35,101 bases of DNA, taken from contig MNXV01000083.1 in NCBI GenBank assembly GCA_001871575.1, positions 1-35,101 of the forward strand. Direction: 5' to 3'. Source of the stretch: Caldisericum sp. CG2_30_36_11. Its GTDB lineage: Bacteria; Caldisericota; Caldisericia; Caldisericales; Caldisericaceae. Below, piece by piece: positions 10,474 to 20,277 of the stretch. Below the pieces are notes generated by a model that was given only the letters and a program-made list of their open reading frames with translations, did not search any database and was not told where the DNA came from. Both the position numbers and the translations under genes were made by a program. How positions within the stretch are numbered: position 1 is the stretch's first letter; every line of letters starts with the position of its first letter.

Positions 10474-11766
10474 TTAAGTTTTGGAGTACTTCGAAATCCT
10501 TTTGTAACTTTCTTTAAACCTTTCTTTTACGTATCCCTCGTCTATCGTTAAAATCTTCTTATTTTCCATTATTACTTTACCATCAATAATAACTGTATCA
10601 ACATCCTCGGGATACATTGAATAAGCAATAAGGGAATGCGGGTCTGTTAGTGGCATAAGGTTTGCTTTGGCCATATCGATGAGTATTAAATCTGCCTTGA
10701 AACCTTCCTTTATAAGTCCAACATCGTTAAATCCAAGGTTTATGGCACCATTTACGGTTGCAAGTTTTAGAGTTTCATATGCGTTAAGCTCTGATGGGTT
10801 CAAACTTACTCCTTTTGCCAGTAGAGATGCAAGCCTCATATCTTCAATGAGTGCAAGGTTGTTGTTTGATGCAGCGCCGTCCGTTCCAATTGAAACAGTT
10901 ATCCCATTGTTGATTAGCTTTGCAATATCTGGAATTCCCGAGGCAAGTTTCAAGTTGCTCTGCGGGTTTACGGTAACTCCAACATTGTTTTTCTTTAGAA
11001 TTTTAATGTCATTATCATTTACCCAGACGCAATGAGCAGCATTTACCCTTGCTTTAAAAAACCCAATTTCTTCAAGTTTTTTAATTGGAGTCTTCCCATA
11101 TTTTTTTATATAATCTTCTACTTCTTTTTTTGTTTCATGGAGATGTATCTGTACCACGGCTCCAAGTTTTTGCGCAACATAAGCTGTGTCTTTTAGCAAT
11201 CTTAAATTGCAGGTGTAAGGTGCATGAGGAGCAAAGCTAATTAAAATTTTTCCATCCCGGCTATTATTATATTTTTTAAAGAAATTTTTAGCTCGATTTA
11301 GAATAAGTTTATCCATATAAGGCTTTGAAGCATATGAAAAACCTATGTTTGCGCGTAATCCTATTTCTTTAATTGCTTTAAAAACTTCTTCCTCATAAAA
11401 ATAAAAATCTGTTATGGTTGTTGTGCCTGTTCTAATAGATTCAATAAGTGCAAGAAGAGTGCCATAATAAACATCCTCTTTTGTGAGTTTGCCTTCGATA
11501 GGGAAAATTGTCTCATTAAGCCATTTATCAAGTGGAAGGTCGTCTGCAATACCCCTCATAAGAGTCATTGCAAGATGAGTGTGAGCATTCACGAAGCCAG
11601 GCATAACAATATGATTTGATGCATCTATTTTATATTCGAACTCTTCTTTCCATTCTTTTGAAGGGCCTATGTATTGAATGGTTGAGTCTTTTAAGACTAT
11701 GTCGCCATTCTCAATAATTTGTTTGTTTTCAAGAGTAAGTATCAAACCATTTTTTATAAGTATCAT
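10474..11766 (-). CDS. mtaD: 5-methylthioadenosine/S-adenosylhomocysteine deaminase
   Basis: A 430-residue metal-dependent amidohydrolase of the MtaD/TrzN group. The metal-binding N-A-H-T-H is at residues 60-64; H-L-H-E-T lies near 210, H-C-V-W near 246 and the catalytic G-T-D-G-A-A-S-N-N near 295. G-G-I/G-I-A-D-D-L-P-L-D-K-W-L and the tail V-D-T-V-I-I-D-G-K are typical. It deaminates methylthioadenosine, adenosylhomocysteine or adenosine. Its ATG directly abuts the speE stop codon. Since SpeE releases methylthioadenosine, the operon context strongly supports methylthioadenosine as a main substrate. No methylthioadenosine phosphorylase or nucleosidase gene lies in the window. Confidence 0.9.
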   Translation of the reverse strand: MILIKNGLILTLENKQIIENGDIVLKDSTIQYIGPSKEWKEEFEYKIDASNHIVMPGFVNAHTHLAMTLMRGIADDLPLDKWLNETIFPIEGKLTKEDVYYGTLLALIESIRTGTTTITDFYFYEEEVFKAIKEIGLRANIGFSYASKPYMDKLILNRAKNFFKKYNNSRDGKILISFAPHAPYTCNLRLLKDTAYVAQKLGAVVQIHLHETKKEVEDYIKKYGKTPIKKLEEIGFFKARVNAAHCVWVNDNDIKILKKNNVGVTVNPQSNLKLASGIPDIAKLINNGITVSIGTDGAASNNNLALIEDMRLASLLAKGVSLNPSELNAYETLKLATVNGAINLGFNDVGLIKEGFKADLILIDMAKANLMPLTDPHSLIAYSMYPEDVDTVIIDGKVIMENKKILTIDEGYVKERFKESYKRISKYSKT

Positions 11767-12690
11767 CTATTTTCTCGGCAAGAATACAGGATTCTGATCT
11801 GTAATTATTTCGCTATCTTCGGACAATATTAATTTAATGTCCTTTGGAAGCGAGAGCATCTGTATGTGTGTATCCCCGTCGTAGAATTTAAGCTGTCCTT
11901 CTATTCTTTCGCTAATGAGACTATTGATTTGATTTGCAGACAAATTTAGAGGATCATACTTTTTTGAGGCTATAATAAAACCCCAGGTTGTATCAAAACT
12001 TGGTATATATGTATAATAACTTCTGACAACAGGGAAAATTTTTTTAAGAGTATTTCTTATGGAAAGATGCATTTTGAAGGTGGTAATTCTCAGGATTGAT
12101 GCTTGAAGTGCAAATACACCTCTATCTTTTAACCTGTCATTAATAATTTCGAAGAATTCTTTCGTAAAAAGTTTGTATGATGGGCCATCTTCAAAAGGTT
12201 CGGTTAAATCCGAGATTATTACATCAACCGATCTTGTGGATACTTGTGTTTCCATAAATTTTCTTGCGTTAAGATTAAGGACTTTTGCCTTTGGGCTTTC
12301 AAGAGCACCCTGGTGCCATTCTTGGAGATACTTTTTGGCAATTTGAATTGCATCTTTATCGATATCTATCATTAAAGCCTTGACGATGCTTTTGTGTTTG
12401 AGTACCTCTCTTAAAGTTGCTCCTTCACCTCCACCCAGGATTATTACGTTTTCAGGTTTTTCTGAAAGAAGCATTGCAGGATGAACGAGCGATTCATGGT
12501 AAATATATTCGTCTTTTGATGTCGATTGGATATCTCCATCGATGATAAGCATTTTTCCAAAAATAGGACTCTGTACCAACTGCAAGTGTTGATACGGAGT
12601 CCTCAAATCGACGAGAATTTTCTCGATCCCGTGAATATGTTCTTCGGATTTTTCGAAGAAGTCATGGAAGTAGAGATAATTCTTTTCCAT
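11767..12690 (-). CDS. speE: Aminopropyltransferase resembling thermospermine synthase (ACL5 type)
   Basis: A 307-residue Rossmann-fold aminopropyltransferase. It has the decarboxylated-AdoMet motif G-G-G-E-G-A-T-L-R-E-V-L-K-H and D-I-D-K. The catalytic loop reads D-L-T-E-P-F-E-D-G-P-S-Y-K-L-F-T, not the D-S-T-D-P pattern of ordinary spermidine synthases, and is followed by P-S-F-D-T-T-W-G; both are close to plant ACL5 thermospermine synthase (D-L-A-D-P-V-E-G-G-P-C-Y-Q-L-Y-T and P-S-F-A-D-T-W-G). The C-terminal E-R-I-E-G-Q-L-K-F-Y also matches. The ATG at 12690 is chosen; a TTG at 12714 is in frame but has no better ribosome-binding site. It overlaps speH by 29 nt. The exact polyamine product is inferred. 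Confidence 0.85.
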   Translation of the reverse strand: MEKNYLYFHDFFEKSEEHIHGIEKILVDLRTPYQHLQLVQSPIFGKMLIIDGDIQSTSKDEYIYHESLVHPAMLLSEKPENVIILGGGEGATLREVLKHKSIVKALMIDIDKDAIQIAKKYLQEWHQGALESPKAKVLNLNARKFMETQVSTRSVDVIISDLTEPFEDGPSYKLFTKEFFEIINDRLKDRGVFALQASILRITTFKMHLSIRNTLKKIFPVVRSYYTYIPSFDTTWGFIIASKKYDPLNLSANQINSLISERIEGQLKFYDGDTHIQMLSLPKDIKLILSEDSEIITDQNPVFLPRK

Positions 12691-13081
12691 TTCTTTCTGA
12701 GCTTGTGCTCTCAACCCTGTGGAGGTATTTTCCCTTTATTTTCTCTCCTCTCGAAACCACAGTTGTTTGTATATGGCTTGCCTCTAATGAATCTGCGACA
12801 AATTTACATGCAGCTTTTGGATCGATGTCTCCACAGGTATAAAAATCTAAAGCCGCATAACCATACTCTGGCCACGTATGAATGGAGAGGTGAGATTCGG
12901 AAATTACCGCCACCCCACTAACTCCCTGAGGAGTAAAGTGGTGAAATGCAACATTTAGTACTGTTGCATTAGCTCTTTCTGCGGCTTCTACGAGAAGCTT
13001 CTTAAGGAAGGTTAAGTTGTTTAGCAAGTCGAGGTTACACCCCGAGATATCCATAATTACATGCTTTCCTTCAGTACGCAT
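12662..13081 (-). CDS. speH: S-adenosylmethionine decarboxylase proenzyme (class 1B)
   Basis: A 139-residue proenzyme that self-cleaves to form a pyruvoyl cofactor and decarboxylates AdoMet, giving the aminopropyl donor for SpeE. The processing site is E-S in V-I-S-E-S-H-L-S-I-H-T-W-P-E-Y-G-Y-A-A-L-D, followed by D-F-Y-T-C-G-D with the catalytic cysteine; F-H-H-F-T-P-Q-G-V-S-G precedes it. A GTG at 13090 is in frame, but the ATG at 13081 has AAGGGGGTGG at ideal distance, overlapping that GTG, so the ATG is preferred. The C-terminal tail past T-V-V-S-R-G is longer than the minimal enzyme and overlaps the speE start. First gene of the polyamine operon. Confidence 0.92.
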   Translation of the reverse strand: MRTEGKHVIMDISGCNLDLLNNLTFLKKLLVEAAERANATVLNVAFHHFTPQGVSGVAVISESHLSIHTWPEYGYAALDFYTCGDIDPKAACKFVADSLEASHIQTTVVSRGEKIKGKYLHRVESTSSERNGKELSLLP

Positions 13082-13109
13082 TTCAGCCACCCCCTTTCCA
13101 AAGAATTAG

Positions 13110-16301: not shown

Positions 16302-16376
16302 GCGGGAGTAGCTCAGGGGTAGAGCGCTGGCTTCCCAAGCCAGTTGTCGCGGGTTCGAATCCCGTCTTCCGCTCCA
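16302..16376 (+). tRNA. tRNA-Gly (anticodon CCC)
   Basis: Full cloverleaf with CCA encoded; anticodon loop TTCCCAA between CTGGC and GCCAG. Very similar in sequence to the minus-strand tRNA-Gly(GCC) at 19830, differing mainly in the anticodon arm. Confidence 0.96.
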
Positions 16377-16378
16377 GA

Positions 16379-16453
16379 GGCGCCGTGGCCAAGTGGTAAG
16401 GCAAGGGTCTGCAAAACCCTCATTCGTCGGTTCGAATCCGATCGGTGCCTCCA
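16379..16453 (+). tRNA. tRNA-Cys (anticodon GCA)
   Basis: Cloverleaf with loop CTGCAAA between AGGGT and ACCCT, acceptor GGCGCCG with CGGTGCC, encoded CCA. Two bases after tRNA-Gly. Confidence 0.96.
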
Positions 16454-16463
16454 GTATTATTAT

Positions 16464-16550
16464 GCCGAGGTGGCGGAATAGGCAGACGCACGGGACTTAA
16501 AATCCCGCGGTGGTAACACCGTACCGGTTCAATTCCGGTCCCCGGCACCA
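16464..16550 (+). tRNA. tRNA-Leu (anticodon TAA)
   Basis: 87-nt tRNA with a long variable arm, loop CTTAAAA between CGGGA and TCCCG, encoded CCA. The acceptor stem GCCGAGG/CCCCGGC has an A-C mismatch at the fifth pair. Confidence 0.94.
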
Positions 16551-19733: not shown

Positions 19734-19808
19734 TGGAGCCGGCGATCTGATTTGAACAGACGACCAGCTGATTACGAATCAGCTGCTCTACCCCTGAGCT
19801 ACGCCGGC
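19734..19808 (-). tRNA. tRNA-Thr (anticodon CGT)
   Basis: Loop TTCGTAA between GCTGA and TCAGC; acceptor GCCGGCG with CGCCGGC, encoded CCA. Last tRNA before hppA. Confidence 0.96.
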
Positions 19809-19829
19809 TTATCTCTCTATAAATAAAAA

Positions 19830-19904
19830 TGGAGCGGAAGACGGGATTCGAACCCGCGACAGCTGCCTTGGCAAGGCAGTGCTCTACCTCTGAGCTACTC
19901 CCGC
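19830..19904 (-). tRNA. tRNA-Gly (anticodon GCC)
   Basis: Loop TTGCCAA between CTGCC and GGCAG; same acceptor and T arm as the plus-strand tRNA-Gly(CCC), encoded CCA. Confidence 0.96.
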
Positions 19905-19911
19905 TTACTAT

Positions 19912-19988
19912 TGGCGGGATCGATGGGATTTGAACCCATGGTCTCCGGCGTGACAGGCCAGCGTGTTGAACCACTACACTACGACCCC
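19912..19988 (-). tRNA. tRNA-Asp (anticodon GTC)
   Basis: Loop CTGTCAC between CTGGC and GCCGG; acceptor GGGGTCG with CGATCCC, discriminator G, encoded CCA. Confidence 0.95.
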
Positions 19989-20001
19989 GCATCTAATAAG
20001 G

Positions 20002-20029
20002 ATTATAACAATATTGGTTAAATTTTCAA
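20002..20029 (-). promoter_or_regulatory. Internal promoter before tRNA-Asp-Gly-Thr and hppA
   Basis: Minus strand TTGAAA (20029-20024), 16 bp, TATAAT (20007-20002), 14 bp before tRNA-Asp. This is the nearest recognisable promoter upstream of hppA. Confidence 0.7.
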
Positions 20030-20044
20030 AATATTTTACCTGAA

Positions 20045-20119
20045 TGGTGGGCGAAACAGGATTCGAACCTGTGACCCCTTCCGTGTGAGGGAAGTGCTCT
20101 ACCGCTGAGCCATCCGCCC
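20045..20119 (-). tRNA. tRNA-Val (anticodon CAC)
   Basis: Loop CTCACAC between CTTCC and GGAAG; acceptor GGGCGGA with TTCGCCC (one mismatch or wobble), encoded CCA. Confidence 0.94.
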
Positions 20120-20123
20120 TCCA

Positions 20124-20198
20124 TGGTGCCCTCGAGGAGGGTTGAACTCCTGTCGCCGCCTTGAAAGGGCGATGTCCTAGCCGCTAGACTACGAGGGC
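20124..20198 (-). tRNA. tRNA-Glu (anticodon TTC)
   Basis: Loop CTTTCAA between TCGCC and GGCGG; acceptor GCCCTCG with CGAGGGC, encoded CCA. Confidence 0.95.
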
Positions 20199-20201
20199 GC
20201 A

Positions 20202-20277
20202 TGGTGAGCCGTGCAGGATTCGAACCTGCGACACCCGGCTTAAAAGGCCGGTGCTCTACCTCCTGAGCTAACGGCCC
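20202..20277 (-). tRNA. tRNA-Lys (anticodon TTT)
   Basis: Loop CTTTTAA between CCGGC and GCCGG; acceptor GGGCCGT with ACGGCTC, encoded CCA. First tRNA of the six. Confidence 0.95.

Follow-up and report, generated by a model that had tools for sequence, protein, structure and literature searches.

Genes of the operon

Three genes follow one another on the minus strand of the window (the whole 35,101-nt stretch of DNA that was analysed), in the order speH, speE, mtaD. As contig C75, the window is part of a Caldisericaceae MAG of 1.22 Mb that is 90% complete. The first gene, speH (12662..13081, ATG at 13081), encodes a class 1b S-adenosylmethionine (AdoMet) decarboxylase of 139 aa which matches PF02675 at 2.9e-41, scores 143.2 bits against TIGR03330 (cut-off 75.65) and, by direct reading, contains the self-cleavage region ESHLSIHTWPE with its Ser cleavage motif. 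An alternative start at GTG 13090 is possible, but it falls inside the AAAGGGGG ribosome-binding site at 13090-13097. The second gene, speE (11767..12690, ATG at 12690), encodes a thermospermine-synthase-type aminopropyltransferase of 307 aa. A start at the upstream TTG (12714) would lengthen the protein by eight residues and give a 53-nt overlap with speH; the ATG is preferred because the family alignment begins there. The two genes then overlap by 29 nt (12662..12690, minus strand), an arrangement that would couple their translation. The gap to the third gene is zero, the mtaD start at 11766 lying directly after the speE stop codon. This gene (10474..11766, minus strand) encodes an amidohydrolase of 430 aa, a probable methylthioadenosine/S-adenosylhomocysteine (possibly 5'-deoxyadenosine) deaminase, with matches to PDB 4f0r (2.4e-85), TM0936 (1p1m/2plm; 3e-70) and PF01979 (1.1e-70). 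We infer its exact substrate, because the NCBIfam equivalogs shown for it all score below their cut-offs.

The gene order, with comparable overlaps and with mtaD directly after speE, is kept in 14 of the 14 Caldisericaceae relatives examined. The 29-nt overlap, the abutting mtaD and the coupling of both neighbours to SpeE, which an earlier note on this DNA had described, are thus present as described and conserved in the family. Further afield, the distance from speE to the mtaD downstream of it is approximately 170-290 nt in Cryosericum and 14 nt in locus L040, and no mtaD was seen within 1.5 kb of speE in three other Caldisericota families (L017, L020, L021, L023), as judged from the genomes with that much sequence. 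The same note had called the operon 'complete', a description that has to be given up: it contains no ornithine, arginine or lysine decarboxylase, and indeed no diamine-making enzyme. Other genes of the pathway are encoded elsewhere, which leaves the operon as its aminopropyl-transfer part. Rfam searches returned no riboswitch near the operon, their matches in the window being only tRNAs elsewhere, and scans for promoters and terminators gave results near chance level. The tRNAs form two clusters, of three genes at 16302-16547 (plus strand) and of six genes at 19737-20277 (minus strand), which flank LytR-type and membrane pyrophosphatase genes.

Placement of SpeE in the thermospermine-synthase-type branch

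SpeE contains the Spermine_synth domain (PF01564, 6.6e-42) and the tetramerisation domain PF17284 (2.4e-10), and scores 212.6 against TIGR00417, the model for the classical spermidine synthase SpeE, below the curated cut-off of 249.55. In an alignment of 138 sequences, seven of which came from alignments to solved structures, we assigned the columns their counterparts in the Medicago thermospermine synthase (MtTSPS; PDB 6bq2-6bq7). In motif 2, SpeE reads GGGEGA, as reported for thermospermine synthases of bacteria (PMC11107197), and its Glu89 is Glu in 71/72 rows on the thermospermine side versus 0/65 on the other. In the ribose-binding motif 3, Asp109 corresponds to MtTSPS Asp129 and is Asp in 71/72 versus 6/65 rows. 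The catalytic loop DLTEPFEDGPSYKLFT (12163..12210, minus strand) runs for 16 residues from the catalytic Asp161, which is followed by Leu162; the branch has a hydrophobic residue at this position and a loop of 16-17 residues. Leu162 is the equivalent of MtTSPS Leu179, which helps stack adenine (PMC6514230). On the substrate side, a loop reading PSFDTTWG from Pro230 (11980..12003, minus strand; IPSFDTTWG with the preceding residue) replaces the PTYPSG loop of spermidine synthases, the TYPSG-type loop being present in 60/65 rows on the spermidine-synthase side and in 0/72 on the thermospermine side. These four columns (Glu, Asp, hydrophobic, no TYPSG) split the two sides almost perfectly and SpeE has all four states. 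It matches MtTSPS at Glu109, Asp129, Leu179 and the GP-Y-LYT loop, whereas the Bacillus and Thermotoga spermidine synthases have GGGDGG, a Ser after the catalytic Asp and a PTYPSG-type loop.

Both motifs quoted in the earlier note, DLTEPFEDGPSYKLFT and PSFDTTWG, are therefore present, and its contention that they are not those of an ordinary spermidine synthase stands. They are not, however, specific to plant ACL5: the same states occur in the Thermus, Pyrobaculum and Chloroflexota enzymes and in two rhizobial plasmid enzymes, and so mark the whole branch. A chance resemblance was considered and rejected, as the motifs follow the deepest division in the tree; the domain matches, the TIGR03330 score and the conserved gene order with its overlap also show that they are not accidental.

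The closest relatives of SpeE are in Caldisericaceae, Caldisericum exile among them. In an IQ-TREE phylogeny of 86 sequences it groups with its own family (14 rows, support 100/99), inside a clade of 28 rows (100/99) that are all from Caldisericota except for one MAG labelled Coprothermobacteraceae. This clade lies within the thermospermine-type branch together with MtTSPS, the Thermus thermophilus enzyme TtTAPT and Pyrobaculum SpeE (99/95). Grouping the Caldisericaceae SpeE with the spermidine synthases of Bacillus, Thermotoga, human and worm was rejected (AU test, p = 3.6e-10), so the phylogeny that had been proposed as the check on the assignment comes out on the thermospermine side. The fold is in agreement. 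The AlphaFold model of SpeE (pLDDT 93, pTM 0.92) is ranked by Foldseek closest to Thermus TAPT (1uir, TM 0.94), next to MtTSPS (6bq2, TM 0.90), including the thermospermine complex, then to Pyrobaculum SpeE and only afterwards to spermidine synthases, which share the superfamily and the fold (TM 0.81-0.86 for those of Bacillus and Thermotoga). The best PDB matches by sequence are likewise 3anx/1uir (8e-73) and 6bq2 (1.5e-57), and identity to function-proven enzymes is 37-41%, with Thermus TAPT at 41% and MtTSPS at 37%.

Searches of plasmids with tblastn returned mostly distant spermidine synthases. The two exceptions, on plasmids of the root-nodule rhizobia Rhizobium sp. BG4 (L159) and Phyllobacterium (L160), are thermospermine-type and group with Thermus TAPT (99/94); one of them is annotated as a fused MFS/spermidine synthase. 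Separately, two Chloroflexota genomes (G105 and G170; loci L135 and L136) carry a spermidine-synthase-side gene and a thermospermine-type gene next to each other in the same orientation.

The suggestion that this family is a candidate relative of the donor of plant ACL5 fares less well. In tests with one plant sequence, and with Cyanobacteria left out of the sample, a clade of the plant enzyme with Caldisericaceae alone was rejected (p = 1e-4), one with all Caldisericota was disfavoured yet not rejected (p = 0.088), and one with Chloroflexota was allowed (p = 0.34). The best tree places the plant enzyme among Chloroflexota with weak support (31/81), and its identity is 42-45% to the best Chloroflexota enzymes and 37% to the SpeE of the window. 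This agrees with published work, which points to Chloroflexota/Cyanobacteria for the origin of the plant enzyme and in which assayed enzymes gave the Chloroflexota result (PMC12803844). The phrase 'relative of the donor family' applies only loosely, as it would to every bacterium in the branch, and the view of the origin of plant ACL5 is unchanged by the Caldisericaceae SpeE.

Diamine supply and predicted products

A family search found a single Spermine_synth-family gene in the genome, and the relatives have at most one SpeE match each. Decarboxylases of PF01276 (ornithine/lysine/arginine decarboxylases of the aspartate-aminotransferase fold) are encoded by 16 of 17 family relatives. None was found in the window's own MAG, which also gave zero matches to PF02784 (the alanine-racemase-fold decarboxylases). 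The gene gpsA, which neighbours the decarboxylase gene in a relative, was not found in this MAG either, in a search run without a positive control; because neighbours in the relative are both absent here, the lack of an ornithine decarboxylase is likely an assembly gap, a missing stretch of the MAG and not a true loss. The purified C. exile decarboxylase prefers ornithine (PMC8503589), and the arginase/agmatinase family PF00491 is absent from all 31 Caldisericota genomes searched, with a positive control in Thermus. Both observations count against a route in which SpeE would act on agmatine like Thermus TAPT, its closest solved relative by sequence and by fold, to give N1-aminopropylagmatine, from which an agmatinase-like enzyme would release spermidine. 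We regard this route as improbable. The setting of SpeE is that of a single aminopropyltransferase, ornithine-fed and agmatinase-free.

The explanation to which we incline, with some reserve, is that speH-speE-mtaD forms an aminopropyl-transfer module whose SpeE makes spermidine and probably then thermospermine, and whose MtaD removes the by-product. SpeH would decarboxylate AdoMet, and SpeE would transfer the aminopropyl group first to putrescine, supplied by the ornithine decarboxylase that relatives encode elsewhere. Formation of spermidine from putrescine is the most likely activity of the enzyme. A second transfer, to the aminopropyl end of spermidine, would yield thermospermine, a continuation that the branch and the active site make reasonably probable. 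MtaD would deaminate methylthioadenosine, relieving product inhibition and starting its salvage, in which enzymes of the PNP/MTAP family (three genes in the genome, judged by family membership) could act after MtaD. Methylthioadenosine would be produced by BpsA as well as by SpeE, and removed by MtaD in either case. The genome encodes a BpsA orthologue on contig C50 (15404-16132; L165 326-1354) with the GDDD motif and an acidic C-terminus, which can branch spermidine further, and branched polyamines are therefore likely to be made besides the products of SpeE. Given this BpsA, it could even be that all the long polyamines are branched.

It is possible, if distinctly less likely, that SpeE stops at spermidine and that long polyamines arise through branching by BpsA. 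Spermidine and aminopropylagmatine synthases are interspersed in the branch and cannot be told from thermospermine synthases by any motif (PMC11107197), and because of these spermidine-only enzymes the production of thermospermine cannot be read from sequence. A glaucophyte ACL5 homologue also makes spermidine only (PMC12803844), and in this genome SpeE is the sole member of its family alongside a spermidine-using BpsA. Against this, the proven relatives in the tree that share the diagnostic columns (MtTSPS, TtTAPT and Pyrobaculum SpeE) make thermospermine, and GGGEGA is the published thermospermine pattern. The motifs bear in a different way on spermine, which SpeE might make as a spermine synthase or as a broad spermine/thermospermine enzyme, given that in red algae homologues from the thermospermine branch have turned into spermine synthases (PMC12803844). 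The tested bacterial spermine synthases have GGGD(G/C)G and a motif 3 Glu (PMC11107197), where SpeE has GGGEGA and Asp instead, and we consider such an activity very improbable. A polyamine profile of any Caldisericum was not found among the papers searched.

Relation to known systems and the polyamine toolkit of Caldisericota

Bacterial thermospermine synthases are already known and were widely reported in 2024. SpeE shares GGGEGA with these enzymes (PMC11107197) and with those of Dehalococcoidia (PMC12803844), of which one homologue (L059) belongs to the same branch and likewise has an AdoMet decarboxylase gene upstream. The published enzymes were assayed, and Caldisericota is not among the phyla given for them. 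The closest parallel is Thermus, with GGGEGAT, the motif 3 Asp and DLT(D/E)P in its TAPT, and with a genome in which this enzyme is single and has an AdoMet decarboxylase upstream; a control search found BpsA in Thermus as well. Thermus differs in its route from agmatine, which needs the agmatinase-like enzyme that Caldisericota are without, and in having no MtaD beside the Thermus genes examined. Caldisericota thus joins the phyla from which thermospermine-type aminopropyltransferases are known, and the Caldisericaceae SpeE should no longer go under its customary label of 'spermidine synthase'.

The more surprising point concerns BpsA, which is found in 34 of 54 Caldisericota genomes, those of the permafrost organism Ca. 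Cryosericum among them. The Cryosericum loci, from a permafrost and cold-lake genus, are L166, L167, L193-L195 and L197, with Ca. Cryosericum septentrionale (G030), Ca. C. hinesii (G038) and others of the genus among the hosts. The Cryosericum BpsA has the GDDD motif and a C-terminal YFDEDT, and matches T. kodakarensis BpsA (5xnc) at 3.5e-66. Published accounts call bpsA absent from mesophiles (PMC12175538) and BpsA restricted to thermophiles (PMC12979288), and the Cryosericum enzyme bears on this thermophile-only view of branched polyamines. We tentatively propose that Caldisericota ancestrally had a single thermospermine-branch enzyme working on ornithine-derived putrescine, together with BpsA and, in several families, removal of methylthioadenosine on site, so that thermospermine and branched polyamines might be made side by side, and that this toolkit was kept in Ca. 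Cryosericum. If this is true, polyamines associated with heat would also serve a permafrost lineage at low temperatures.
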